This document shows positions 2,586 through 50,266 of a stretch of DNA of 64,000 bases, in pieces (position 1 is the first letter of the stretch; every line of letters begins with the position of its first letter). The notes beneath the pieces were generated by a model. That model made no database searches, was not told where the DNA came from, and was given only the letters and a program-made list of their open reading frames with translations. The stretch is from an uncultured Alphaproteobacteria bacterium (lineage in GTDB: Bacteria > Pseudomonadota > Alphaproteobacteria > JAPOUT01 > G958296285), in assembly GCA_958296285.1 (NCBI GenBank), contig OY282459.1:1470762-1534761 (forward strand), read 5' to 3'. The position numbers were made by a program, and so were the translations under genes.

Positions 2586-3653
2586 ATGGATGAGAAAAAC
2601 TCCAACCCATCAACCCCCACAAAAGAGCGCGTCTTGGAAGCGCTCGGACGAATCGCCGACCCCATAAGCGGAGAATCTATCACCGCCGCAGGACTCGTGG
2701 AAGGCGTCAGAGTCCACGGCGCGCGCGCCCAAGTGATCCTAGCATCCCCGCATCATCAAGCCGAGGCGCGACAGATATTAGGAAAAATCTGCGAAAGCGA
2801 AATCCTCAAAATTCCAGGAATCCGCCAAGCCAATGTCGTCCTAACCGCGCATAAGCCTCCGCCAAAACTCGCGGCGCGGAAAACAGCCCCCGATCTCTCC
2901 TTCACGCGAAAAATCATCGCTGTCGCGAGCGGAAAAGGCGGAGTCGGAAAGTCTTTCGTCGCCGTGAACCTCGCAGTCGCCCTCGCGCGCAGAGGACTCA
3001 CAATCGGATTGCTGGACGCCGATATCTACGGACCATCCGTCCCGCAAATGCTCGGAATCAAAGACAAACCCACCCTGGATGAAAAAAAACGCCTCATCCC
3101 CCATAAAGCCCACGGAATAGAAGCCATGTCTTTGGGCTTCCTCGTGGATCCCGATCGCGCGATGATCTGGCGAGGACCTATGGTGCATTCCGCAATCACG
3201 CAAATGCTCGGGGATGTCGCATGGAACCCAATGGACATGCTCATCGTGGATATGCCCCCTGGAACAGGAGACGCCCCTTTGACCCTCGCCAGCGGAGGAT
3301 CGCTTTCAGGAGTCGTCCTCGTCTGCACGCCGCAGGAAATCGCGCTTGCCGATCTGCGGCGCGCAATCGCAATGTTTCGGCGCTTGGAAATCCCAACGCT
3401 CGGAATCGTGGAAAATATGGCGTGGTACGAACAGCCCAATGGCGAACGGGTCCCGATCTTCGGAGAAGGCGGCGCGGAAAATCTGGCGAAAAAGGAAAAT
3501 CTCAAACTCCTCGGCGCCCTGCCCCTCAATCTCGCCGCCCGCGAGGGAAGCGACAGAGGCGCGAATGTCTTTATGATCTCAGAGGCGGAAAAACTCGCCC
3601 AGCGCTTTGACGAAATCGCCGAAAAACTCGCGCGGATAACTAAGGATAACTAA
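2586..3653 (+). CDS. mrp: Mrp/ApbC P-loop ATPase, iron-sulfur cluster carrier
   Basis: 355 aa from the ATG at 2586, preferred over an in-frame ATG at 2550 because AAGGA sits 6 nt upstream and the earlier codon overlaps a -10 box. Residues 10-90 form the DUF59/MIP18-like domain. The ATPase domain has the deviant Walker A SGKGGVGKS at 115-123, DADIYGPSVP just after, and VDMPPGTGD as the switch region. The family binds and transfers 4Fe-4S clusters in the cytoplasm. The CPxCG motif of many Mrp proteins is missing: at that place, after IVENMAWYE, the sequence reads QPNGERVPIFGEGG. Loss of these cysteines also occurs in other alphaproteobacterial Mrp proteins, to my knowledge. The 3' end overlaps the convergent gene A by 4 bp. 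Confidence 0.95.
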   Translation: MDEKNSNPSTPTKERVLEALGRIADPISGESITAAGLVEGVRVHGARAQVILASPHHQAEARQILGKICESEILKIPGIRQANVVLTAHKPPPKLAARKTAPDLSFTRKIIAVASGKGGVGKSFVAVNLAVALARRGLTIGLLDADIYGPSVPQMLGIKDKPTLDEKKRLIPHKAHGIEAMSLGFLVDPDRAMIWRGPMVHSAITQMLGDVAWNPMDMLIVDMPPGTGDAPLTLASGGSLSGVVLVCTPQEIALADLRRAIAMFRRLEIPTLGIVENMAWYEQPNGERVPIFGEGGAENLAKKENLKLLGALPLNLAAREGSDRGANVFMISEAEKLAQRFDEIAEKLARITKDN

Positions 3654-6600
3654 AACAAATACCGAACCCTGAACCGCCCGCTATTCACAACAGAATCGCC
3701 CCCCACGCCAAAAAGACCCCGATAGGACAATCCCAATTTGACGCGATCGGATTGCGCCAGATTCACCTCCAAAGAAATCTCCATCAGCGCGCGCTCCATG
3801 CTCCCCTCAATGCGAAAGGGCGTCTGACCTGTCGCGTCCGAAGCAAGACGCGCGCGAATCGGAAGGCGCGGATCGGTCAGAAAAGAATGCGCCGAAACGC
3901 CCGCGCGAGCAGAGAAAACGCCATACACAGTCCGCAGCGACCTAGACGCCTCAAAAGACGGCGACAAACTCGCCTGAACTTCACGGATAGCCTCTATATG
4001 AAGCGCCGCAGCGCCGCCCGATTCCGTGAAACTATCCATAAAATGTCCAGTCGCCGAACCCTCCAAGCGCGGAACAAAAGACCACCCCCATGCCTCAAAA
4101 CCCCGATATTCTAAACCCGCGCGCGCCGAAACCGTGATCGTATCAGGCTCTCCAACAACCGTCTCTATCCCGCTCAAAAGAACGCCCCGCTTGACCTCAT
4201 ACAAGCCCAAACCCAAATTGACCGACAGATCATAAACGAAAGAATCCGCCGAATCCGCCCGAAGCGCAGCCCCTATCAGAATCCTGTCGCCTCTGCCAGA
4301 ACCCGAGGACGAAAAGTCCAAATCGCTGCTCTCATAAGAAAACGCGCCAGAAATATGCCAAGCGCGTCCCAAAAAATCCCGCCACAACAGAAAAGACCCG
4401 CCGCCAGAAATATGAAGAACAACCTCCGTGAAATCACCAGCGCCAGAATCCTGCGCGAAAGAACGAGCGCCTAAACGCATCCAACCACAACGCTCCCTGC
4501 CCCAATCCGTCAGAAGACAATCCTGAGTCCCAAAAGATTTCGCGAAAAGACGATCGGAAAGCCAGTCGGCTTGCAAGGGCGCGTCATAGGCGCGCGGCAT
4601 CAGAGTCTGAAAACTGCGAGGCAGAGATTCCTCAGACGCGCTCCGCAACGCCGCGAAAAGAGGCTCTATCGCCAAAGGACTCGTTTCAGAAACCCGCCGA
4701 AAATAATCCGTCATCCCCGCATCCGCGCCACGCGCCGTGAAAGCCCCAAAATCCCGCGTCAAAATTATCCGGAGCGTGCTGCCCTCTAAACTTATCTCCG
4801 ACCTGTTCAGAAAACTCGCATTGACACGCAAACCCGCATAATTGACCCGTCCAGCGCGAAGAAGATTGACAGACGAAAAAACGCCGGCAATGCCTCTGAG
4901 ATCCAACTCCCCAGCCAAAAGAGCCTCCCCCCCCGCGCCTGTCCCCATATCTATGATCGGATTGGGAAGAGCCGCCATCCCCCCGTCAAACTCAAGACGC
5001 AGAGAACCCCCTGTCTGAGTGAAAAATTCCAAACCTCTCACGCGCCCATCACGAATGGTCAGCGTTCCACTGTTCATCAGAGAATCAGAGCCACTCCCAA
5101 AATCGCTGTCGCCCGTCAAAACCGCGCCCGTCCCAGAATTGATGAAACTGTCCGACCCCGCGCCCATCGTCAGCGAGCCTTCATATATGCCCGCATTCTC
5201 AAATCTGTCATCGCCGCCGCCCATCGCCACATCGCCCAAAAGACTCGCGCCCCCCGAATTCGTGATGACGTCATCGCCTTCCAGCATAGAAGCGCCGCTG
5301 GACTGGCATGTCACGTCAGAACTCTGAAGAGCGCGGGCATGGCAATCGGCGTAAATCCCGCCCATGACGCGTCCGCTATTTTGAATCTCGTCATCGCCAA
5401 AACCCGTATAGATCCCCCCTTCAATCACGCCGCCGCTCTGGTTGATCAGCCTGTCATGCCCCTCCCCAAAGGCAGGATCTCCAAGATCGCTTGCAGTGAT
5501 CGCGCGAATGAAAAGAATGTCGCCCGCTATCCGCCCGTTATTCTCAAGCAGAGGCGATGCGGCAGAAATATCCCCTCGCGCCGCATAAACGCCTGTCTCA
5601 TGAACGACCATATCGCCATTCGGGTAGTAATCTCTGGACGCCCATTCGGGCAACTCTAACGTGCCTGCCGCCGCCGCCGCGTCGACCACCTCCCAATTGT
5701 CAGCGACAAACTCTGTGCCAGCCGCCTTCACCAAAATGGCGCGATAAATCATCCCGCCCCGAAGAACAATATCGTCCGTCTCGTAAGACTCACTCGCCAT
5801 GAAAGGACTCATCCGACCTTTAGTCTGATCGCGCATCCAATTCGCGCCATCCATATCGGGAGCATCGCGATCATGAATCGCCGATCCGCCATCCATCACA
5901 ACAAGGGCGGGGCTGTTCCGCGCCACGCTGACCGAAGAATCTTCCGTGATCAGCAAATCCAACCTGCCTCTGTCCGACCGAACGAAAACGCCCCGAGACC
6001 CTGAGCCTGTCGCGCCTAAAACCGCTCCCAACCCAACACCCACGGCCACAAAACCCGAACCCATCGCATAGGCGTCTATAATATGCGCGTTGTCGCCCGA
6101 AGTTGAAAGCCGTCTATTCGCCTCAATGCTAATCTCGCCGCCCCCAGCGCCGCGCGCGAAAATCGCGCTGCCTGTGGTCGTGATGATCCCATTGGCTAGA
6201 ATGCGAAGCGCGCCCGCGTTGGCCTTCTCGGCATGAACGCCGCGAGACCTCGCGCCTTCGGTCAGCAAGGAGGTGTTCTGATCCAAAGTGATGGACAGAT
6301 CGCCAGAATCCCCCGCCATATTGCCAAGAGCGCGGAGCTCTATCGCAGGCGCGTCATCGCCCCGCGTCCGAATGCTGCTATTCCCTGAAAACATGATGTT
6401 AATTCCTGTCCGCGCATAAACGCGGATGCCCGCCGAACCATCGCCGCGCGCGCTGATCCGTGAATTGCCCGCCGACATTACCATCGCAGAGCCTAAAGGA
6501 AGAGTCGCCTCGCCAAGCCTGACGCCATCGCTCCCTCCCTCATGAGACGTCAGAAGCCCGCCAGAGCCGCTCAACATCACCACAGCCGAAGAGGCCTCGC

Positions 6601-7930
6601 CCGCGCCCGTCATCGGGGAAATATGAATGCCATGCATCCCCGACATCATAGCGCTGGAGTCAGGATCCCCCGTCTCTATAGAGCCAGAGAGATCAATCGT
6701 CAGGCTCGGAGCATCGGTGAAATCCACAACAACCCCCGCGCCCCCCTCAGCGCGTATGAAACCCCCAACAGTGATCTCCACATCGCCGCCCTCAGACGAA
6801 GCGTGAATTCCCTCCGCGCCAGCGCCTGTCACCGTGATCTCGCCCGGCGCGGTGATCGCAAGCGCCCCGCCAGCCGTGTTGGCGCGAATGCCAACCGATC
6901 CTTCCCCAAATGTCCTGATAATAGCCTGCGCGGATATATCAATGTCGCTGTCGCCAGAACCCGCCACATCGCTGAAAATGGCATGAGAAGAATCGCCGCT
7001 CGCGCTTCCGGTGATAATCCTGCCGCCTTGAATGTCTATATCCACGCCTCCCGCATTCCCAGAAAGCGTCTGCGCGTAAATGCCATGCGAGCCCGCGCCC
7101 TCCGTGAAAATAACAAGACTCCCACGCATATCAATATCCACCGCGAGAACGCTGCCGCTGCCACGACCCTCAGCAGAAATCCCATGCGAAGCCGCCCCTT
7201 GAGTCCTAATATAAGCCGCTTCCAATGTCCCCGTGATCATCGGCGCGCCATCACTGTCAAAAATAATCGCCCCCCCATTGCCGACAACATCCACAACGGA
7301 AGACGCCGTGCCAACATCCACATCCATATCGCTCGTGCTGACCCTGATGCCATGCGCGCCGGCGCTCTGAGTCTCCACGCGGACAGTGTCCGTCGTGGCC
7401 GCGCCAAGAAAAAGCCGCAACATGCTCTCGCTATCCCCAACAAGCTCCAAGCCGGTCTGAGACCCCCCAGTAAAACGCCCCGCCCTTATCTCCATTCTAA
7501 TCTCATCGCCGTTAGAGAGACGAATGCTCTCCAGAGCGGCGCTCCCCTCTTTCACGAAAACCAAGCGCGTAAAGTTGGAACCGCTGCCCCCATAAACAAC
7601 GGACATGTCATCGTAAGAATCTTCGCCGCACCAAATGCCCGTATGATAAGCGCCCTCGCCAAGACGCCGCCAACCGCCCGATCCCTCCCCAGACGGCGCC
7701 GCGCTCCCGGAAGGAACCGCGCGTTCCGCCAAATAGGTGCTCTGATTGTTCACGACAAATGAGCCTTGCTCATAACGCACCGTCGCCGAAAATTCAGGAA
7801 TGGATGCCGCCGCGCCGCATTCATCCGCAGCCCGCGCCAAATCCGCGCCAAAAACGCCCAGCGCCGAAAAGAAACCCGCCGCCCAAAAGCAAAGAAATCG
7901 CCACCCCATTCGCTCTGTCCTGATCATCAT
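3650..7930 (-). CDS. Autotransporter A (type V secretion), beta-helix passenger plus C-terminal beta-barrel
   Basis: 1426 aa. Signal peptide about 1-34 ends LARA, followed by the ADECG start shared by the family; a partner cysteine follows in IWCGED. An aromatic Y..G..V segment (about 50-95) resembles carbohydrate-binding modules of the CBM5/12 kind. The passenger is Gly/Ser/Asp-rich with many SHGI and GSGDxDIDI strands. Around residues 705-790 two further such segments occur (Y..DDIV..GG.IYRA...NWEVV and W...YYPNGDMVV...VYAA). GDD-x-x-x-NSG strands lead to the barrel, which begins about residue 1115 with the helix LQADWLSDRLF and a Cys pair (CLLTDWGRERCGWMR) and ends FRVRYLF. The gene starts 13 bp after gene B stops and has AGGGA about 10 nt before the ATG, so it is probably last in a C-B-A operon. 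The ligand is unknown. Confidence 0.92.
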   Translation of the reverse strand: MMIRTERMGWRFLCFWAAGFFSALGVFGADLARAADECGAAASIPEFSATVRYEQGSFVVNNQSTYLAERAVPSGSAAPSGEGSGGWRRLGEGAYHTGIWCGEDSYDDMSVVYGGSGSNFTRLVFVKEGSAALESIRLSNGDEIRMEIRAGRFTGGSQTGLELVGDSESMLRLFLGAATTDTVRVETQSAGAHGIRVSTSDMDVDVGTASSVVDVVGNGGAIIFDSDGAPMITGTLEAAYIRTQGAASHGISAEGRGSGSVLAVDIDMRGSLVIFTEGAGSHGIYAQTLSGNAGGVDIDIQGGRIITGSASGDSSHAIFSDVAGSGDSDIDISAQAIIRTFGEGSVGIRANTAGGALAITAPGEITVTGAGAEGIHASSEGGDVEITVGGFIRAEGGAGVVVDFTDAPSLTIDLSGSIETGDPDSSAMMSGMHGIHISPMTGAGEASSAVVMLSGSGGLLTSHEGGSDGVRLGEATLPLGSAMVMSAGNSRISARGDGSAGIRVYARTGINIMFSGNSSIRTRGDDAPAIELRALGNMAGDSGDLSITLDQNTSLLTEGARSRGVHAEKANAGALRILANGIITTTGSAIFARGAGGGEISIEANRRLSTSGDNAHIIDAYAMGSGFVAVGVGLGAVLGATGSGSRGVFVRSDRGRLDLLITEDSSVSVARNSPALVVMDGGSAIHDRDAPDMDGANWMRDQTKGRMSPFMASESYETDDIVLRGGMIYRAILVKAAGTEFVADNWEVVDAAAAAGTLELPEWASRDYYPNGDMVVHETGVYAARGDISAASPLLENNGRIAGDILFIRAITASDLGDPAFGEGHDRLINQSGGVIEGGIYTGFGDDEIQNSGRVMGGIYADCHARALQSSDVTCQSSGASMLEGDDVITNSGGASLLGDVAMGGGDDRFENAGIYEGSLTMGAGSDSFINSGTGAVLTGDSDFGSGSDSLMNSGTLTIRDGRVRGLEFFTQTGGSLRLEFDGGMAALPNPIIDMGTGAGGEALLAGELDLRGIAGVFSSVNLLRAGRVNYAGLRVNASFLNRSEISLEGSTLRIILTRDFGAFTARGADAGMTDYFRRVSETSPLAIEPLFAALRSASEESLPRSFQTLMPRAYDAPLQADWLSDRLFAKSFGTQDCLLTDWGRERCGWMRLGARSFAQDSGAGDFTEVVLHISGGGSFLLWRDFLGRAWHISGAFSYESSDLDFSSSGSGRGDRILIGAALRADSADSFVYDLSVNLGLGLYEVKRGVLLSGIETVVGEPDTITVSARAGLEYRGFEAWGWSFVPRLEGSATGHFMDSFTESGGAAALHIEAIREVQASLSPSFEASRSLRTVYGVFSARAGVSAHSFLTDPRLPIRARLASDATGQTPFRIEGSMERALMEISLEVNLAQSDRVKLGLSYRGLFGVGGDSVVNSGRFRVRYLF

Positions 7931-7943
7931 AAAACGCCGATCC

Positions 7944-9890
7944 CTAAAAAATATAGCCGAAACGGAACATGCCCTGATGCGACCGACCCCGCCCTTCCAT
8001 CGCCACAGAGCCTTGATAGGAAAAGCCCGCGCTTAAACCATTGACAGACTTGTAACGAAAACCCGCTTCGTAATCTACGAAACTCCGCGCTATAGCCCCG
8101 CTTATGCGGAAAGACGAAACGCCTATAGGCGCGGAAGCAAGTCGCGCGCTGATGTCGCTCCTTGGGTCTTCGGTCATGAAACCCAAGCCTGTCCCCGCCC
8201 AAAAAGAAAAATCGCCCGCCTTAGACGAAAAACCATAGCGCCCAACACCAGAGGCGCGAAAGAAAATCGGAGTCTCGCCAATGTCGTCAACCGCCAAAGC
8301 CGCCGCATTCCCCTTCTCCAAAACCCCCTCCAAAATCTGATGAAGAAAATGAATTTCTAACCGGGGAATGGCGAAAAACCCCGATGGAGAACGAGTCTTG
8401 CCCTTCGCCCGATCGGCTTCATCTAGACGAACCCGCGCCGACACGCCTATCGCCGCCCCCAACTGAATGAGATCCGGATCGGACGACACAACCCCCAAAT
8501 AAGAACCCGGAAATAAAGACGCCGCGCCCAAATTCACCGCCCGCCGCATATCATAGGAAGAATATCCAAAGCGGAAACTCGCATCCCAATCCAAACCGAA
8601 AACTTTGCTCCTCATCCCCGCGCCCAAAAAAAGACGATCCCCATCGGCAGAAGCGCTCTCCCCATCCATCGCAAGATTATGGTAAAGAGCCGCCAAAACA
8701 ACCTCCCAGCTCTCCAACTTCGCCCGCATCCCTAAAGAAAAACCCAGCGCCTCCTCCTCAAAACCAGAACGATATTCCCCAGACGGCTGCTCAAACATCC
8801 CGCCTTCAGCCCGCATCCAAACACATCCTTTTTGACTCGCAAAAGCCGCTATCCTGACGTCCAACTTCTTCAGAGCGCATGATTCCGACCAAAGATCCTC
8901 AGCAAAACGCTTATCCGCATGCCAACCCGCTTGAAGAAGAGCGTCATAACTCCGCGGCAGAAGACGAATATAAGCAAGCCGCGTCATCTCCAAAGAATCA
9001 ACCGAACCCGCCGCGAAAAGAGCGTCCGCCATATCGTTCAGCGCAACCAAAACAGGCGAATCATAGGCAACACGGTGAAGAGACTGCAAATGACGCGCGA
9101 TATTCTCAAGGTCGGCAGAAACAAATTGCCCCATGGAATCGCTCGGCAGCGCCAACCCGCGAACAGGAAGACGCGCCGCGCGCGTGAAATCCTCCCGCAC
9201 AGTCACGCGGACAATACCGCCTTCTATGGAACTCCCAAGCAGAGTGAAAAGCGGCGAAACCTCAATCCGCAAATCTTCAGCCCGCGTGACGTTCTGCGCG
9301 CGCAAAAGCGTGATATGTCGCGCGCTCTGCAGACCCGGAACGGGAGATGTCCCCGTCAAGCGAACTGTCCCGCCAAGATGCGCGACCGTCCCTGTCGCGC
9401 CAAAATCCAAAACAGCGCCCGCTCCCGATGGAATATCCGTAATCCGCATGATCAGAACGCCCGTGGATTCAAACCTCTCCAAACCCTCTATGCGGACAGA
9501 AGTCCCGCCAGAAGGCGCGATGGTTAAATTTCCGCTATTGGCGAAAAGGTCTCGGACGCCCCCGCCAAAACGACTCGTCCCACTGAGCGTCATCAAGACG
9601 CTATCCTCTAATTGAACGCCGTCATTGCCGTCTCCTGTCGTGATGCCGCCCACATCGCCCACGCTCCCCCTCATTCTGATGAGAAGATTGTCGGCGCTAT
9701 ATTCTATTCCGCCGCCCAAACTGGCATCATCGGCGTCACCGCATATAACCTCGCTCTGGTAAGCCGCCTCCGCAGAGGCAAAAGGCGCGCCGCATTCATC
9801 CACCGCTCTGGCAGGAGAAACAGGCGCGGCAGAAGCGCCATAAAGCGCCGCCGCAATGAAACCATAAAAACGACAGCGATCAAAAAGCAT
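7944..9890 (-). CDS. Autotransporter B, short passenger
   Basis: 648 aa, the smallest of the set. Signal peptide about 1-29 (MLFDRCRFYGFIAAALYG... ending ARA), then VDECG and a second Cys in VICGDADD. The passenger is only about 270 residues: one strand-rich module with DGVQLEDSVLMTLSG, GGVRDLFANSGNLTI and a final VRITVRED-like strand. The translocator starts near residue 312 with the shared SYDALLQAGWHADKRF helix, then a Cys pair with CVWMR, and ends MFRFGYIF. It effectively shows the minimal unit from which the larger genes are built. Its ATG overlaps the stop of gene C by 11 bp and GAGG lies just upstream inside gene C, so translation is probably coupled. Role unknown. Confidence 0.92.
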   Translation of the reverse strand: MLFDRCRFYGFIAAALYGASAAPVSPARAVDECGAPFASAEAAYQSEVICGDADDASLGGGIEYSADNLLIRMRGSVGDVGGITTGDGNDGVQLEDSVLMTLSGTSRFGGGVRDLFANSGNLTIAPSGGTSVRIEGLERFESTGVLIMRITDIPSGAGAVLDFGATGTVAHLGGTVRLTGTSPVPGLQSARHITLLRAQNVTRAEDLRIEVSPLFTLLGSSIEGGIVRVTVREDFTRAARLPVRGLALPSDSMGQFVSADLENIARHLQSLHRVAYDSPVLVALNDMADALFAAGSVDSLEMTRLAYIRLLPRSYDALLQAGWHADKRFAEDLWSESCALKKLDVRIAAFASQKGCVWMRAEGGMFEQPSGEYRSGFEEEALGFSLGMRAKLESWEVVLAALYHNLAMDGESASADGDRLFLGAGMRSKVFGLDWDASFRFGYSSYDMRRAVNLGAASLFPGSYLGVVSSDPDLIQLGAAIGVSARVRLDEADRAKGKTRSPSGFFAIPRLEIHFLHQILEGVLEKGNAAALAVDDIGETPIFFRASGVGRYGFSSKAGDFSFWAGTGLGFMTEDPRSDISARLASAPIGVSSFRISGAIARSFVDYEAGFRYKSVNGLSAGFSYQGSVAMEGRGRSHQGMFRFGYIF

Positions 9891-44437: not shown

Positions 44438-44513
44438 GCGCTATTTTCCCAAAATTCTCAAAAAATGAAAAATGCCAAAAGAAAAGCCCCTCGTGAAGAA
44501 AAAGCACAGACTC

Positions 44514-44526
44514 TATGCTTTATATT
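44514..44526 (+). promoter_or_regulatory. Putative promoter region of the first tRNA array
   Basis: TATGCTTTATATT precedes the first tRNA by about 10 bp and provides a TATATT -10 candidate. About 45 bp here are nearly identical to the region before the second array (about 49501-49545). No good -35 is seen. Confidence 0.4.
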
Positions 44527-44535
44527 TTATCGGGG

Positions 44536-44636
44536 GCCGGTGTGGTGGAACTGGTAGACACGCCCGATTCGCACTCGGGTGGGACATGCAGCTAACCCTG
44601 CATCCCGTGCGGGTTCGAATCCCGTCACCGGTACCA
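44536..44636 (+). tRNA. Class II Leu-type tRNA with anticodon CGC (copy 1)
   Basis: 101 nt including encoded CCA. Acceptor GCCGGTG pairs with CACCGGT (7 bp, terminal G1-U72 wobble), then A73-CCA. D-arm GTG/CAC with loop GGAACTGGTAGA is typical of leucine tRNAs. Anticodon stem CCCGA/TCGGG encloses TTCGCAC, giving anticodon CGC at 44570-44572 with U33 and A37. The variable region (29 nt) folds as GGG, 2-nt bulge, ATGCAG / CTGCAT-CCC with loop CTAACC. T-arm GCGGG-TTCGAAT-CCCGT is canonical. Body and discriminator say leucine; the anticodon would read the Ala codon GCG. Which amino acid it carries is unknown. Confidence 0.85.
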
Positions 44637-44718
44637 GTTCCCTGCCACAAAGGCGCGACTTTTATACGACAAAAAACGCTCTCGCGCAATGGCTCTCAAT
44701 CTGAATGCGAAAATGCCG

Positions 44719-44727
44719 TGATATAAT
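44719..44727 (+). promoter_or_regulatory. Extended -10 promoter of tRNA copy 2
   Basis: TGaTATAAT 15 bp before the tRNA. The same block is repeated in each 105-bp spacer, so each later tRNA copy carries its own promoter. No strong -35, as is usual with extended -10 sites. Confidence 0.6.
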
Positions 44728-44741
44728 CACGCGCCATCTGC

Positions 44742-44843
44742 GCCGGTGTGGTGGAACTGGCAGACACGCCCGACTCGCAATCGGGTGGGACATGCAGACG
44801 ACCTCTGCATCCCGTGCGGGTTCGAATCCCGTCACCGGTACCA
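44742..44843 (+). tRNA. Class II Leu-type tRNA with anticodon CGC (copy 2)
   Basis: Same body as copy 1 with one D-loop change (GGC for GGT). Anticodon loop CTCGCAA, anticodon CGC at 44776-44778. Variable-arm tip ACGACCT, allowing the stem to extend by one A-T pair. It is the last copy of the first array and ends 86 bp from the gene G stop. Confidence 0.85.
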
Positions 44844-44877
44844 GTTCCATGCCACGAGGGCGCGACTTTTATACAAC

Positions 44878-44922
44878 AAAAAACGCCCCCGCGCAATGGC
44901 TCTCAACGCCAAAGCAGGGGCG
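44878..44922 (-). terminator. Rho-independent terminator of autotransporter G
   Basis: On the minus strand, CGCCCCTGC pairs with GCGGGGGCG (9 bp with one T-G pair) around a 21-nt loop that can form a small inner stem, followed by six T. It begins 8 bp after the gene G stop codon. An almost identical structure follows gene H. Confidence 0.7.
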
Positions 44923-44929
44923 AAGGCGC

Positions 44930-47900
44930 TCAAAAAGCGTAATTCAGGCGGAAGAGGATATTGTGCAGACTCGTCTCGCCTGTCAGAGCGAAAGCGCCTT
45001 CATAGGCGAAGTCCATCTCCAAATTGCCGCGGCGATAACTCCCGCCGAGACTGACATCCATGACGGCGATCCCCATTTCGCCATCGGCGTTATGAGGGTT
45101 GCCGCCCGAAGTTCCTTCTACGGTGGCGGAGGGATCGCCGAGAAAAAAATCTATCCCCGTCCGCAAATGGGGGACTATATGGACGTTCTGTCCGCGATAT
45201 CGGGTGAGGTAATCGGTCTGCGCCTCCGCATAGACGCGCCCGATTCCCAAAATGTCGCTCGTTTCGGCGACTGTCAGAAGAGAGTCGCGCCCTCGCGCGG
45301 CGCTAAAGCCGTCCATGGCGCGCGAGACGAGTCCCAGATCCGCCCCCGTCGTCAGGTAGAGAGCGCCGAAAGACTTTGGCAGACGCAGAGATTTCGGGGC
45401 GATGGGGAATTGTTTTTCCACGCCCCCTGTCGCGGCGATCGTCAAGAGGTTGGAGCTGCTGTTGGCGATCGGGAAGTTTCCGCCGAAAGCGGTCTCTATC
45501 TCTTGCGAGGAATAGCCGAAGCGGAGTTCGCCGTTGAAATCCAGGTTGAGGCGGGATCGCCCGCCGCGCGTTCCGATCTGCGCGCCGCCGAGATAGCGAT
45601 TGATGTCGGCTTCCGTCCTGATGCCGCTGAGTTCGGTTTCTAACGCGCTGACCTCTATGCCCATCCCGAGTCTCATAAACCACCGATCCCGCAAAATATG
45701 CGCGCCTGTGGCGAAGGTATAGACGAGCTCGTCATATTCCGCCGCGCCTGACGGGGCGTGGATGGCGAAACGTCCGCCGGTGCGACCCCACGCGCACCAG
45801 TTTTTCTCGCCGAGGAGAACGGCATAGCAGGTCTGCGAGCGCATGGCGATGCTGAAGGCGCGATCCGCATACCACGCCGTCTGAAGAAGAGCTTCGTAGC
45901 TTCCGAGCGCGGCGCGGAAGGCGGCGGCGGCGTCAAGCGGGGTCGGCGTGGTGGGGCCGGGATCGGTCGGGCCGGGATCGGTCGGGCCCGTCGGGGGAGG
46001 CTCCACAGGCGGGCGCGGCGAAGTCGGGAGGGTGATCTGCAAAACCCCGCTGCTTGAGACCGCGAGCGCTCCCGAGGAGGAGGTCAGCGCCCTGATTTGG
46101 CTTGCCGTCAGCCCGCCGGAACTTGTCCGCGTGATGAGCGGCAGAACAGCCCCCGCCGAGAGGGTGGAGCCGCGAGCGGCGGCAACCTCAATCGCCCCCG
46201 CCGTGAAAGTTGCCGTGGTCGCGCCGCCGAGATTAAGAAGCGCGTTTGCCGCAGAGACTGTCGGCGCGGCGTTGTTGAAATTGAAGACGAAGTGAATTGT
46301 CCCCGATGTCTGCGTAAAGGTCTCAAGGCCGGAGATGGAGACCTGCCCGCCTTCCGCGGCGTGATCTATGACGAGCCTTCCCGTATTGGTGAAACTGTCG
46401 GAGCTCCCCGCGCCGAAATCAATATCGTCATTAAGAGTGAGCCTTCCTGAATTGGAGACGGAGTCGTCTCCCGCCCCCATGGTGATATCGCCTATGAAAG
46501 TTCCCGCATTGTTGAAAACGTCATTGCCCGCCCCCATGGTGATATCGCCTGTGAAGGTTGAGCCGCTGGCGGTTCGGATTTCGTCAACCCCGCCGCCCAG
46601 AGAGATGTCGCCTGTAAAACGTCCCGTGGCGGCGTTCTCAAAGAGGTCGTCCCCCGCGCCGCTTGAGAAATCGCCCACGATCGTTCCGGCGTTGCTCGCC
46701 CTGTTCCCCGTCCAATCTCCCGATCCGATCGTCCTCGCGGTTGTCGTGTCTGTGTTGGTGCCGGAAAAGAAAATCGCTTGGTCGTTGGATGAGGCGGTGT
46801 TGTCCTCATTCAGAGTGGTGACTGTCGCGCCTGACGAAATATCCAACGTGACCTGATTGCTGGTGGCGTCATTGCTGGTGGGGGTGTCGGCAGCCCTTAC
46901 CCGCACAGTGGCGACATCCGCGGCAAAAGAGCCAGTCGCTCTATGCGTGCCGCCGGTGATGTCCAAATGGACATTGCCCGACCCACTGTTGAAAAGATTT
47001 ATGGCAGGGTCGGAGCTGCCGAGCGTGGTCGTGTTGCCGCTGACAGTCGCGTTGATATCGGCTGATGAGCTGGCGTTGCTAATTCCGCCACGGATAGCGG
47101 CGTTGGACACGGCGCTGGTATTGTCGGCGATGGAAACATCGCCCGCGATGTTCAGATGAAGAGCGCCCGTGTGGGTGCTTAGAGAACTCACCGAAATTCC
47201 ATGTCTGAGATTGCGCCCATCTTCGTTGGCGACTGTCGTGCCTGAAAGGGTCGTCAAATAAAGATCGCGCGAGCCGGTCGTGTTGGAAAGAAAAACCGCG
47301 CTGTTCCCCGAACTGCCGCTGGGCTTGGTGATTGTGCCGCTTTGGATATGAATCTCGCCGCCTGAGCCCGTATGGCTGATGAAGGGCGTTCCTGAGGCGG
47401 CGGTGTTGTAGAGAATGGCGAGACGGTCATTGGTTGCCGTGATTCCTGAGGAATAGGCGTTGGCGGTGGCGCTCGCGCAGGAAACCTGCATATTCGCCGC
47501 GCCGGGCGTAGAGACCATTCTGCTCGCCAGAGCCTGCCCGCAAACCCTATCGGCGAGGGTGATCTGCAAAACCCCGCTCGTGATCGCGAGCGTTCCGGAG
47601 GAGGAGCTCAGCGCCATGACTTGGCTTGACGTCAGCCCGCCGGAACTTGTCTGCGTGATGAGCGGCAAAACAGTGCCGCTGGAGAGCGTGGAGCCGGAAG
47701 CGGCGACAACCTCAATCACCCCCGCCGTGAAAGTCGCCGTGGTCGCGCCGCCGAGATCAAGAAGCGCGTTTGCCGCCGTGACTGTCGGCGCGGTGTTGGA
47801 GAAATCATAAACGAAGCGTATCGTCCCCGAGGTCTGCGTAAAGGTCTCAAGCCCTGAAAAATCCACTTGCTCATCGCTGTTGGCGGCATGGTCTATGATC

Positions 47901-49294
47901 AGCGTTCCTGTATTGATGAAACTGTCGGTGCCCGTGCCAAATGTGGAATCGCCGTCCAGCGTCATTGCCCCTGCATTGCGGACTTCATCGCCGCTGCCGC
48001 CCATATCCTCAATTCGGCCGGTGAAAGTGCCGTGATTTTCAAAGAGGTCAGCGCCTCCTCTGCTTGAGAAATCGCCGATGATTGTGCCTCTGTTGGTGAC
48101 GCGACTGCCCATCCAGTTTCCCGATCCGATCGTGCGCGGTGTATTGGTGGTGGTGTTTATGGAGTTAATGAAGATCGCGCGATTGGCGCTCCCCGAAGCT
48201 TCCAAAGTCGTGCCTGAAGAAATGCTTATGAGGTGGGGATCAAGAGCAGAGCTGTCCACTCGCAAAGCGCTGTTTGTCGTGCCCGTCTGCGATCCTGTGG
48301 CTCTATGCCTGCCGCCGGTGAGATTTACGACTACTCTGCCAATCCCAATGTTGCCTGATGATCGGCCTTGCCCAAAGATATCTATGGCAGCGCGGTTAGT
48401 GCCTGTGGCGGTCGTATTGCCGCTCGCGGTTAAAGCGATCGTGCGGCTGACGCCCCCAGCGGGCTGAGTGTCAACTGATAGACGAATCGCATCACCAACG
48501 GCGGTAACATCGCCCGCTACATTCACATAGATATCGCTGCTAGAAAGATTGCGAACTTCTACCCCATAATTGTTGTTGCTGTCTGTATCCGTATTGGAGA
48601 TTGTCACGCCTGATGCGACCGTGAGAGAGAGAGGGTTAGTATTGCCAGCAACGGTAAGAATCCCAACTGCCGCGCCATTGGATTCGGTGCCGGTCTTGGT
48701 GATTGTGCCTTGCTGAACGTGAATCTCGCCGCCCGCGCCTGAATGGCGGATAAAGTTCGCTGTTCCGGTTCTATTATAGATGATGGCGAGATCGGCGTCA
48801 TCATAGTCAATTGTGCTGTCATAGCCTGTTGAAGGTGTATCGGAGGAGTTGCAGACGACCTCATCGGAGGCGTAATCCGTGCCTGCCGTCAGATTCGCCG
48901 ACCAGCCATTCATGGCGGTTGTGCCGTTTGTTCCGCCCGGCGCGCCTGTCCCCGTCCCTATTCTCCGATAAAGACGCTCTGTGGAACTGACCGTATGTTT
49001 AATGACAGTGCCGAGCGCGTAAACCGTTCCCGATGCGTATGTGCCGAAGCGAGTCGTGCCTGCCGAGGCGGTTGCCCCTGCCCCGCATTCATCCGCCGCT
49101 CTTGCCGGCGTTGTCGGCGCGAAAAGCGCAAGCGTCAAAAGCGCGGACATCAGAGACGCCCGCATCGCAGACGCCCGCATCGCCCCCAGCGCGAGAATCT
49201 TTAGAGGGAAGCGCGGCAACAAGGCTACCCCCCCCCCCCCCCGCGAGGAGACGAAGCTAAAGCCCTGTGATTTCACAGCTTTTTCCGTCTTCAT
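44930..49294 (-). CDS. Autotransporter G, two-module passenger with Pro-rich linker; probably phase-variable
   Basis: 1454 aa. The start at 49294 has AGGGGGA upstream. The N-terminus is unusual: about 38 residues precede the normal signal peptide, and a 15-G run encodes RGGGGV at 18-23. The hydrophobic core lies at about 49-62, ending ARA before ADECG. A Y..GTVI...W segment with partner Cys EVVCNSS follows. Module 2 opens at VCGQALASRM. Instead of passing straight to the translocator, the passenger ends in a Pro/Thr/Gly linker (about 1090-1115). The translocator starts YEALLQTAWYADRAF near 1130, has CYAVLLGEKNWCAWGR and ends LFRLNYAF. Gene G shares this linker type and its 3' end with gene H. 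It is flanked on both sides by tRNA arrays on the other strand. In this copy the G-tract keeps the frame open. Confidence 0.94.
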   Translation of the reverse strand: MKTEKAVKSQGFSFVSSRGGGGVALLPRFPLKILALGAMRASAMRASLMSALLTLALFAPTTPARAADECGAGATASAGTTRFGTYASGTVYALGTVIKHTVSSTERLYRRIGTGTGAPGGTNGTTAMNGWSANLTAGTDYASDEVVCNSSDTPSTGYDSTIDYDDADLAIIYNRTGTANFIRHSGAGGEIHVQQGTITKTGTESNGAAVGILTVAGNTNPLSLTVASGVTISNTDTDSNNNYGVEVRNLSSSDIYVNVAGDVTAVGDAIRLSVDTQPAGGVSRTIALTASGNTTATGTNRAAIDIFGQGRSSGNIGIGRVVVNLTGGRHRATGSQTGTTNSALRVDSSALDPHLISISSGTTLEASGSANRAIFINSINTTTNTPRTIGSGNWMGSRVTNRGTIIGDFSSRGGADLFENHGTFTGRIEDMGGSGDEVRNAGAMTLDGDSTFGTGTDSFINTGTLIIDHAANSDEQVDFSGLETFTQTSGTIRFVYDFSNTAPTVTAANALLDLGGATTATFTAGVIEVVAASGSTLSSGTVLPLITQTSSGGLTSSQVMALSSSSGTLAITSGVLQITLADRVCGQALASRMVSTPGAANMQVSCASATANAYSSGITATNDRLAILYNTAASGTPFISHTGSGGEIHIQSGTITKPSGSSGNSAVFLSNTTGSRDLYLTTLSGTTVANEDGRNLRHGISVSSLSTHTGALHLNIAGDVSIADNTSAVSNAAIRGGISNASSSADINATVSGNTTTLGSSDPAINLFNSGSGNVHLDITGGTHRATGSFAADVATVRVRAADTPTSNDATSNQVTLDISSGATVTTLNEDNTASSNDQAIFFSGTNTDTTTARTIGSGDWTGNRASNAGTIVGDFSSGAGDDLFENAATGRFTGDISLGGGVDEIRTASGSTFTGDITMGAGNDVFNNAGTFIGDITMGAGDDSVSNSGRLTLNDDIDFGAGSSDSFTNTGRLVIDHAAEGGQVSISGLETFTQTSGTIHFVFNFNNAAPTVSAANALLNLGGATTATFTAGAIEVAAARGSTLSAGAVLPLITRTSSGGLTASQIRALTSSSGALAVSSSGVLQITLPTSPRPPVEPPPTGPTDPGPTDPGPTTPTPLDAAAAFRAALGSYEALLQTAWYADRAFSIAMRSQTCYAVLLGEKNWCAWGRTGGRFAIHAPSGAAEYDELVYTFATGAHILRDRWFMRLGMGIEVSALETELSGIRTEADINRYLGGAQIGTRGGRSRLNLDFNGELRFGYSSQEIETAFGGNFPIANSSSNLLTIAATGGVEKQFPIAPKSLRLPKSFGALYLTTGADLGLVSRAMDGFSAARGRDSLLTVAETSDILGIGRVYAEAQTDYLTRYRGQNVHIVPHLRTGIDFFLGDPSATVEGTSGGNPHNADGEMGIAVMDVSLGGSYRRGNLEMDFAYEGAFALTGETSLHNILFRLNYAF
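45945..46020. repeat. Pro-rich linker of gene G with 15-bp tandem repeats
   Basis: GGGCCGGGATCGGTC occurs in tandem and encodes GPTDP-type repeats. Such linkers give length to the exposed passenger or separate it from the pore. Confidence 0.6.
49228..49242 (-). repeat. Poly-G tract (15 G in coding sense) inside gene G
   Basis: Fifteen consecutive C on the plus strand, 15 G in the coding strand, covering codons 18-23 (CGG, four GGG, GTA). Tracts of this length in the 5' part of surface-protein genes are classical slipped-strand phase-variation sites. Gain or loss of one base would stop translation or force re-initiation at the ATG codons near codons 39, 44 or 49. Confidence 0.85.
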
Positions 49295-49363
49295 GATCAG
49301 TCCCCCTATTCCCCTTGAATCCCCTAAACCCCGACTGCCTCTTTCGCGTGAAAGGCGAATTCC

Positions 49364-49379
49364 TCAAGGCGAGCCTTGA
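49364..49379. repeat. Palindrome in the 5' leader of gene G
   Basis: TCAAGGC-GA-GCCTTGA, a perfect 7-bp inverted repeat about 20 bp downstream of the putative -10 box. It could be an operator or an RNA hairpin; too small a loop makes a protein-binding site more likely. Confidence 0.4.
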
Positions 49380-49401
49380 TTCCTCAAAATAGAACAATAG
49401 C

Positions 49402-49430
49402 AATATAGACAGACGCGCCCCGAAAGACAA
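49402..49430 (-). promoter_or_regulatory. Promoter of autotransporter G
   Basis: Minus strand: TTGTCT, 17-nt spacer, TATATT. Spacing matches the other autotransporter promoters but the -35 differs (TTGTCT instead of TTGGCT), and the leader is about 100 nt long. Confidence 0.6.
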
Positions 49431-49523
49431 GTGGGGATTTCTTATTTTCAATCTCTTTTCCAAAATTAGGAAAAGTGAAAAAGGTTAAAAGAAACGCCTC
49501 TCGTGAAGAGAAAGCGCAGACTC

Positions 49524-49536
49524 TATGCTTTATATT
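49524..49536 (+). promoter_or_regulatory. Putative promoter region of the second tRNA array
   Basis: TATGCTTTATATT in the same position relative to the first tRNA as in array 1; the surrounding sequence is conserved between the two arrays. Confidence 0.4.
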
Positions 49537-49545
49537 TCATCGGGG

Positions 49546-49646
49546 GCCGGTGTGGTGGAACTGGTAGACACGCCCGATTGCCATTCGGGTGGGACATGCA
49601 GTCAACCCTGCATCCCGTGCGGGTTCGAATCCCGTCACCGGTACCA
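49546..49646 (+). tRNA. Class II Leu-type tRNA with anticodon GCC (copy 3)
   Basis: First copy of array 2, with the D-loop T also found in copy 1. Anticodon loop TTGCCAT gives GCC at 49580-49582, which would read the Gly codons GGC and GGU. Variable-arm tip TCAACC. All stems are intact and CCA is encoded. The body is leucine-type, so anticodon and body disagree. Confidence 0.85.
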
Positions 49647-49728
49647 GTTCCATGCCACGAAGGCGTGACTTTTATACGACAAAAAACGCTCTCGCGCAAT
49701 GGCTCTCAATCTGAATGCGAAAATGCCG

Positions 49729-49737
49729 TGATATAAT
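49729..49737 (+). promoter_or_regulatory. Extended -10 promoter of tRNA copy 4
   Basis: TGaTATAAT, 15 bp before the tRNA, identical to the block before copies 2, 5 and 6. Confidence 0.6.
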
Positions 49738-49751
49738 CACGCGCCATCTAC

Positions 49752-49853
49752 GCCGGTGTGGTGGAACTGGCAGACACGCCCGACTCGCACTCGGGTGGGA
49801 CATGCAGCCACAAGTTGCATCCCGTGCGGGTTCGAATCCCGTCACCGGTACCA
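49752..49853 (+). tRNA. Class II Leu-type tRNA with anticodon CGC (copy 4)
   Basis: Anticodon loop CTCGCAC, anticodon CGC at 49786-49788. The variable arm has the most divergent tip, CCACAAG with a G-T closing pair, while the stem pairs are kept. Otherwise identical to copies 2, 5 and 6. Confidence 0.85.
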
Positions 49854-49935
49854 GTTCCATGCCACAAAGGCGCGACTCTTATACGACAAAAAGCGCTCTC
49901 GCGCAATGGCTCTCAATGTGAATGCGAAAATGCCG

Positions 49936-49944
49936 TGATATAAT
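49936..49944 (+). promoter_or_regulatory. Extended -10 promoter of tRNA copy 5
   Basis: TGaTATAAT, 15 bp before copy 5. Confidence 0.6.
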
Positions 49945-49958
49945 CACGCGCCATCTTC

Positions 49959-50060
49959 GCCGGTGTGGTGGAACTGGCAGACACGCCCGATTGCCATTCG
50001 GGTGGGACATGCAGACGACCTCTGCATCCCGTGCGGGTTCGAATCCCGTCACCGGTACCA
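49959..50060 (+). tRNA. Class II Leu-type tRNA with anticodon GCC (copy 5)
   Basis: Anticodon loop TTGCCAT (as in copy 3), anticodon GCC at 49993-49995, but the variable-arm tip ACGACCT is that of copy 2. Loop and tip variants are therefore shuffled between copies, which suggests gene conversion. Confidence 0.85.
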
Positions 50061-50142
50061 GTTCCATGCCACGAGGGCGCGACTCTTATACGACAAAAAG
50101 CGCCCCCGCGCAATGGCTCTCAATGTGAATGCGAAAATGCCG

Positions 50143-50151
50143 TGATATAAT
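50143..50151 (+). promoter_or_regulatory. Extended -10 promoter of tRNA copy 6
   Basis: TGaTATAAT, 15 bp before copy 6. Confidence 0.6.
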
Positions 50152-50165
50152 CACGCGCCATCTTC

Positions 50166-50266
50166 GCCGGTGTGGTGGAACTGGCAGACACGCCCGACTC
50201 GCAATCGGGTGGGACATGCAGCGAGATCTGCATCCCGTGCGGGTTCGAATCCCGTCACCGGTACCA
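50166..50266 (+). tRNA. Class II Leu-type tRNA with anticodon CGC (copy 6)
   Basis: Anticodon loop CTCGCAA (as in copy 2), anticodon CGC at 50200-50202; variable-arm tip CGAGAT is unique to this copy. Last copy of array 2, 86 bp from the gene H stop codon, the same distance as copy 2 from gene G. Confidence 0.85.

Follow-up and report, generated by a model that had tools for sequence, protein, structure and literature searches.

Misacylated tRNAs can make the decoding of sense codons ambiguous, a phenomenon described chiefly in yeasts and, for nematodes, in vitro only. The nearest analogues of the genes reported here are two groups of unusual tRNAs, the nev-tRNAs and the allo-tRNAs. The eukaryotic nev-tRNAs (PMC4300185, PMC4033280) combine a class II, leucine-like body with a non-leucine anticodon (Gly CCC or Ile UAU), are multicopy and read mostly rare codons; those of C. 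elegans are leucylated in vitro with no detectable mistranslation (PMC4300185). The allo-tRNAs (Mukai et al. 2017, reviewed in PMC7609411) are bacterial, have a long variable (V) arm and a 12-bp acceptor domain arranged as 8/4 or 9/3, carry the identity of Ser (or Ala) tRNAs, have widely varying anticodons that mismatch the predicted synthetase, and sometimes occur in arrays. In the literature searched, which gives partial coverage, no bacterial family of leucine-type tRNAs of this kind is described.

We analyzed a 64,000-nt stretch of DNA (the window), corresponding to positions 1470762-1534761 of a single 1.733-Mb contig in a genome, probably alphaproteobacterial, that is 93.5% complete. Six chimeric tRNA genes, all on the + strand between 44536 and 50266, match the Rfam model RF00005 with 50.4-53.0 bits (gathering score 29). 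The anticodon is CGC in t1 (44536..44636, V-loop CTAACC, 52.4 bits), t2 (44742..44843, ACGACCT, 52.2 bits), t4 (49752..49853, CCACAAG, 50.4 bits) and t6 (50166..50266, CGAGAT, 52.3 bits), and GCC in t3 (49546..49646, TCAACC, 53.0 bits) and t5 (49959..50060, ACGACCT as in t2, 50.5 bits). Alignment of the genes, 101-102 nt in length, reveals in every copy a 7-bp acceptor and a 5-bp T-stem, the Leu-type D-arm GTGGAACTGGYAGACAC, a roughly 27-nt variable arm whose stem is ATGCAG/CTGCAT, the wobble pairs G1-U72 and G49-U65, and U33, A37, U48, A73 and an encoded CCA. The G1-U72 pair also occurs in E. coli tRNA-Leu(UAA). The anticodon loops (TTCGCAC, CTCGCAA, CTCGCAC and TTGCCAT), with U33 and A37 kept, read as competent for translation. 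The sequence-only reading, which had described six intact class II cloverleafs with these features, four with CGC and two with GCC, is thus borne out in position, strand and structure.

Chimeric tRNAs of this kind are easily overlooked: ARAGORN detects only t6 and labels it tRNA-Ala(CGC). The five missed genes, and a minimum-energy fold of the unmodified sequences that is not a cloverleaf (about -45 versus -36 to -40 kcal/mol), would fit pseudogenes or misread repeats. That explanation is largely refuted and scarcely credible, given that all six genes are complete with CCA and that tRNAs of the host for Leu(TAA), Leu(TAG) and Ala(CGC) fold no better, failing likewise to reach the cloverleaf, which makes this folding test uninformative. 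Covariance scores, earlier named as a check for pseudogenes, lie at 50-53 bits against a cut-off of 29 and together with covariation among homologues rule out a broken-stem reading.

E. coli LeuRS requires A73, A14, A15-U48, G18G19 and A20a and does not require the anticodon, while C2-G71 counteracts SerRS (PMC9976931). All of these elements, C2-G71 included, are present in 6/6 chimeric tRNAs, which agrees with the earlier claim of a leucine-type scaffold that LeuRS would read through A73 and the fold rather than the anticodon. The D-arm is nearly identical to that of the host tRNA-Leu(TAG), and LeuRS itself is represented in the host by one gene above the family cut-off (983 bits). As also noticed previously, the AlaRS determinant G3-U70 is missing, with C3-G70 in all six; the discriminator is A73, as opposed to U73 in the host tRNA-Gly(GCC) and to the G73 of SerRS substrates. 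Because the LeuRS determinants are kept and both G3-U70 and the U73 of host tRNA-Gly are absent, leucine is the likely amino acid, and we consider leucylation of the chimeric tRNAs as such to be probable.

The genome contains 52 tRNA matches, including normal Ala (CGC, GGC, TGC), Gly (GCC, TCC, CCC) and Leu (TAA, TAG, CAG, GAG) tRNAs, and the chimeric genes are therefore additions to an existing set. GCG is the most used alanine codon of the host (2120/4226) and GGC the most used glycine codon (1541/2769). The anticodons fit these two codons, as they would if the genes were supplementary Ala and Gly tRNAs, charged according to their anticodon and providing extra decoding capacity, but such a role is very unlikely considering C3-G70 in place of G3-U70, A73 in place of U73, the leucine D-arm and long variable arm, and the normal CGC and GCC tRNAs that the host already has.

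Efficient missense decoding at the commonest alanine and glycine codons would be very costly or toxic. We compared 115 gene pairs between the host and E. coli, representing 32,713 aligned residues, an approach that is blind to low-level or conditional leucine decoding. GCG aligns with Ala in 37.6% and with Leu in 5.1% of cases (39.2% and 5.0% for GCC), and GGC with Gly in 63.5% and Leu in 1.2%; the picture is unchanged with relatives from the same order. GCG thus corresponds to Ala and GGC to Gly and, in the absence of a leucine excess in homologue alignments, reassignment of either codon to leucine is rejected at the evolutionary level. The earlier proposal that these tRNAs could put Leu at GCG and GGC, or serve outside translation, thus finds partial support: the genes have Leu-type identity elements and are not pseudogenes, a reassigned code is not supported, and Leu insertion, if it occurs, would be at a low level or conditional.

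The chimeric tRNAs share with the nev-tRNAs a class II body of Leu type, a non-Leu anticodon, multiple copies, the presence of normal cognate tRNAs and codons that are not reassigned. They differ in a variable arm of about 27-33 nt across the bacterial genes compared with 15-20 nt, in reading the commonest rather than mostly rare codons in the case of the window, and in that leucine charging is predicted here and demonstrated for the nev-tRNAs. No evidence for common descent was found, and since the host is bacterial and the nev family belongs to nematodes, we regard the chimeric tRNAs as an analogue and not a member. With the allo-tRNAs they share a bacterial host, a long variable arm, an anticodon at odds with the predicted synthetase and an arrayed arrangement; membership is rejected on the acceptor, which is 7/5 instead of 8/4 or 9/3, on identity (A73, Leu D-arm, C3-G70), and on anticodons limited to Ala, Gly and Ser. 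Canonical bacterial tRNA-Leu has the same D-arm, A73, A14, A15-U48, G18G19 and 7/5 architecture. The window genes possess its LeuRS determinants and lack its anticodon base A35, having CGC or GCC instead, and they differ further by a variable arm about twice as long, a multicopy array and a hypervariable V-loop.

Relatives were sought by scanning genomes for the Leu D-arm in combination with any non-A35 anticodon. Among the matches listed, a group with the same long variable arm comprises L064, L080, L083, L084, L109, L121, L129, L139, L142, L150 and L171. When additional copies are counted in, the group has the anticodons GGC, CGC, GCC and GGA, with CAC in one damaged copy; the anticodons are nearly confined to these four even though the search excluded nothing except A at position 35, and U33 and A37 are invariant. 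The hosts are gammaproteobacterial metagenome-assembled genomes (MAGs) with isolate names RHO, IRC, CAR and SB, plus the rhodobacterial Boseongicola sp. SB0675_bin_26; L109 is Candidatus Azophilus lithoversatilis (Azotimanducaceae). Most of these MAGs are apparently sponge symbionts, the isolate naming resembling that of reef-sponge MAG studies (e.g., PMC8163846). Several relatives have 2-4 copies per genome, and decayed copies occur at L109, L121c, L139 and L342. With a model built on the window genes alone (R1), the best relatives score 76-90 bits and the ordinary 85-87 nt tRNA-Leu of those genomes about 70 bits. In evenly drawn samples, restricted patterns matched 1/385 genomes from the window's class, 1/369 from that of G068, and 4/81 in the G068/G066 family (reversed control pattern, 0). 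The family thus spans several lineages, namely gammaproteobacterial MAGs, one rhodobacterial MAG and the host of the window, and the long-V-arm chimeric tRNA is otherwise rare and patchy in distribution. The window genes have an identity of 0.79-0.81 with L064/L171 compared with 0.71-0.73 for the Leu tRNAs of their host, and the V-stem TGCAG/CTGCA is common to the window and gammaproteobacterial genes; a common origin is no more than suggested by these similarities.

In eight gammaproteobacterial relatives (L121, L083, L171, L064, L129, L080, L142, L109), a GC-rich hairpin of 10-12 bp ends 2-7 nt 5' of the tRNA, its sequences unrelated and its pairing kept, and a second hairpin lies 3', often with GGCCA in the loop. 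At L080, L109, L139, L150, L306, L310, L311, L319 and L342, the tRNA belongs to a conserved unit, at most about 300 nt long, that recurs in differing genomic contexts, as if the cassette had moved whole. A downstream ORF in the gammaproteobacterial units was rejected as a conserved gene, its ATG context being kept and its reading frame not. The scan also returned, among the matches listed, oddities with shorter variable arms, and many matches with a tRNA-Leu(UAA)-like body whose anticodon stem fails to close in register, which we read as group I introns and set aside. Gemmatimonadota MAGs and one Zixibacteria MAG (L101, L105, L119, L138, L148, L177) contain Leu-like tRNAs with ordinary variable arms in which the anticodon is GGC, CGC or CGG and its stem in some cases imperfect, possibly a separate case of the same anticodon switch. 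On viral contigs (L184, L197, L209, L217, L199, L232 and others), phage tRNAs whose anticodons are those for Asn, His or Gln have a Leu-type D-arm, some with a long variable arm. At L003 and L043 (G000, 1236897 and 1238995), a second tRNA-Thr(TGT) lies 2.1 kb from the first with the same 5' part and an altered 3' end, resembling the trace left by an integrating element.

The six genes of the window are organized in tandem units of about 207 nt plus one duplicated block, as revealed by a repeat search. This layout, the dispersed units in one gammaproteobacterial clade, the decayed copies and the patchy distribution would all be expected of selfish or neutral repeats, that is, tRNA-Leu copies with a changed anticodon spread by tandem and dispersed duplication with no function for the host. 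Pairwise differences between copies argue otherwise: the scaffold differs at 8/480, 0/255 and 0/570 positions (8/1305 altogether, 0.6%), all eight at one D-loop base, compared with 36/630 (5.7%) in the spacers between copies. A frozen scaffold, about ten times less divergent than the adjoining DNA, argues for function. The tRNA structure is under selection: among 29 base pairs predicted across 20 genes, 14 display two-sided (compensatory) change, and for 28-29 pairs over the 20 homologues standard pairing is found in 96.1% of cells against 79.5% after shuffling, with 0/500 shuffles as high. Together with persistence in several lineages, these observations make repeats without function rather improbable. 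Anticodon loops differ at 37/105 pairwise positions (35%) and V-loops at 65/102 (64%), the latter changing faster than spacer DNA. Since t2 and t5 have the same V-loop and unlike anticodons (CGC and GCC), the copies are mosaics. The L121 array repeats the pattern, with near-identical bodies and different anticodons and V-loops.

Sequences resembling expression signals accompany the genes. An extended -10 promoter-like site, TGATATAAT, lies 14 nt upstream of t2 (44719..44727), t4 (49729..49737), t5 (49936..49944) and t6 (50143..50151), each an exact match on the + strand. Exact matches to TGNTATAAT number five in the window versus 0.42 expected, four of them at these genes; the four sites are not independent because all belong to one repeat. 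The t1 leader (44461..44535, + strand) starts a 300-nt repeat that is 94% identical to 49471-49770, containing the t3 leader, and an AT-rich TATATT directly upstream in the t1 leader region may mark a promoter. A terminator-like hairpin with a T-rich tail follows t3 (49651..49677, + strand) as the clearest copy, with weaker ones 3' of the other chimeric copies.

The surroundings consist of successive autotransporter-like ORFs of very large size on the - strand (3650-63810; 1426, 648, 1250, 1645, 3756, 4714, 1454 and 4485 aa), with PF03797 (autotransporter) matches in those at 3650-7930 and 7944-9890. The tRNA arrays sit between the last three, and tRNA-plus-ORF ends have been duplicated together. 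The 1454-aa ORF that separates the two tRNA groups (44930..49294, - strand) has no Pfam match and is context outside the tRNA function. About 20 codons into it, a run of 15 C at 49228-49242 (15 G on the coding strand) is a candidate switch for phase variation by strand slippage in the gene of a surface protein. A phage or plasmid origin was rejected as blastn against phage and plasmid collections gave no match.

We tentatively favor the reading, about as likely as not, that these are functional extra tRNAs, charged with leucine and in limited or conditional missense use, a bacterial Leu-accepting counterpart of the nev-tRNAs. In such a mechanism, a leucine-tRNA scaffold bears anticodons that match the most frequent Ala and Gly codons; the host LeuRS, blind to the anticodon, would most likely charge it with Leu; and the tRNAs, if expressed, would place Leu at GCG and GGC on the ribosome, rarely enough that both codons keep evolving as Ala and Gly, with a benefit perhaps under stress or Ala/Gly starvation. 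The Rfam matches, compensatory pairs, frozen scaffold, LeuRS elements, D-arm close to that of host tRNA-Leu(TAG), single LeuRS, match to the commonest codons, promoter-like sites, invariant U33 and A37 and anticodon confinement count for limited missense use. Against it count the lack of a leucine excess at GCG and GGC, the toxicity expected of efficient use at such common codons, a variable arm longer than that of host tRNA-Leu, the decayed copies in some relatives and, by analogy, the nev-tRNAs, charged without detectable mistranslation (PMC4300185).

The same nev-tRNA precedent and the unchanged code fit the main rival, ranked ahead of repeats without function: leucylated tRNAs acting off the ribosome, whether as dedicated donors of leucine, as decoys for toxins that cut or modify tRNAs, or as regulatory RNAs, with the variable arm as a recognition handle. 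The exceptional length of that arm, its conserved stem and a loop diverging in the window at 64% versus 5.7% for spacers, a pattern seen again in the L121 array, favor such a role, as does the strong hairpin just 5' of gammaproteobacterial copies. It leaves unexplained, however, why anticodons are confined to Ala, Gly and Ser and for what reason U33 and A37 persist. A search for a cyclodipeptide synthase as user of Leu-tRNA gave no match, its control sequences being unmatched too, and no conserved neighboring gene was found around the window and relatives. We consider an off-ribosome role somewhat unlikely. A bolder version of missense use, in which a horizontally spread family in marine and sponge bacteria would program code ambiguity by inserting Leu on cue wherever the most frequent codons for Ala, Gly and Ser occur, and in which the hypervariable V-loop would have diversified to serve recognition or control, appears quite improbable.

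If directed at the codons used most for small residues, a conserved bacterial family would represent either a natural mistranslation system or a case that shows how cells keep charged missense tRNAs from translation. With these genes, it becomes possible to test whether the genetic code is departed from covertly or under certain conditions.
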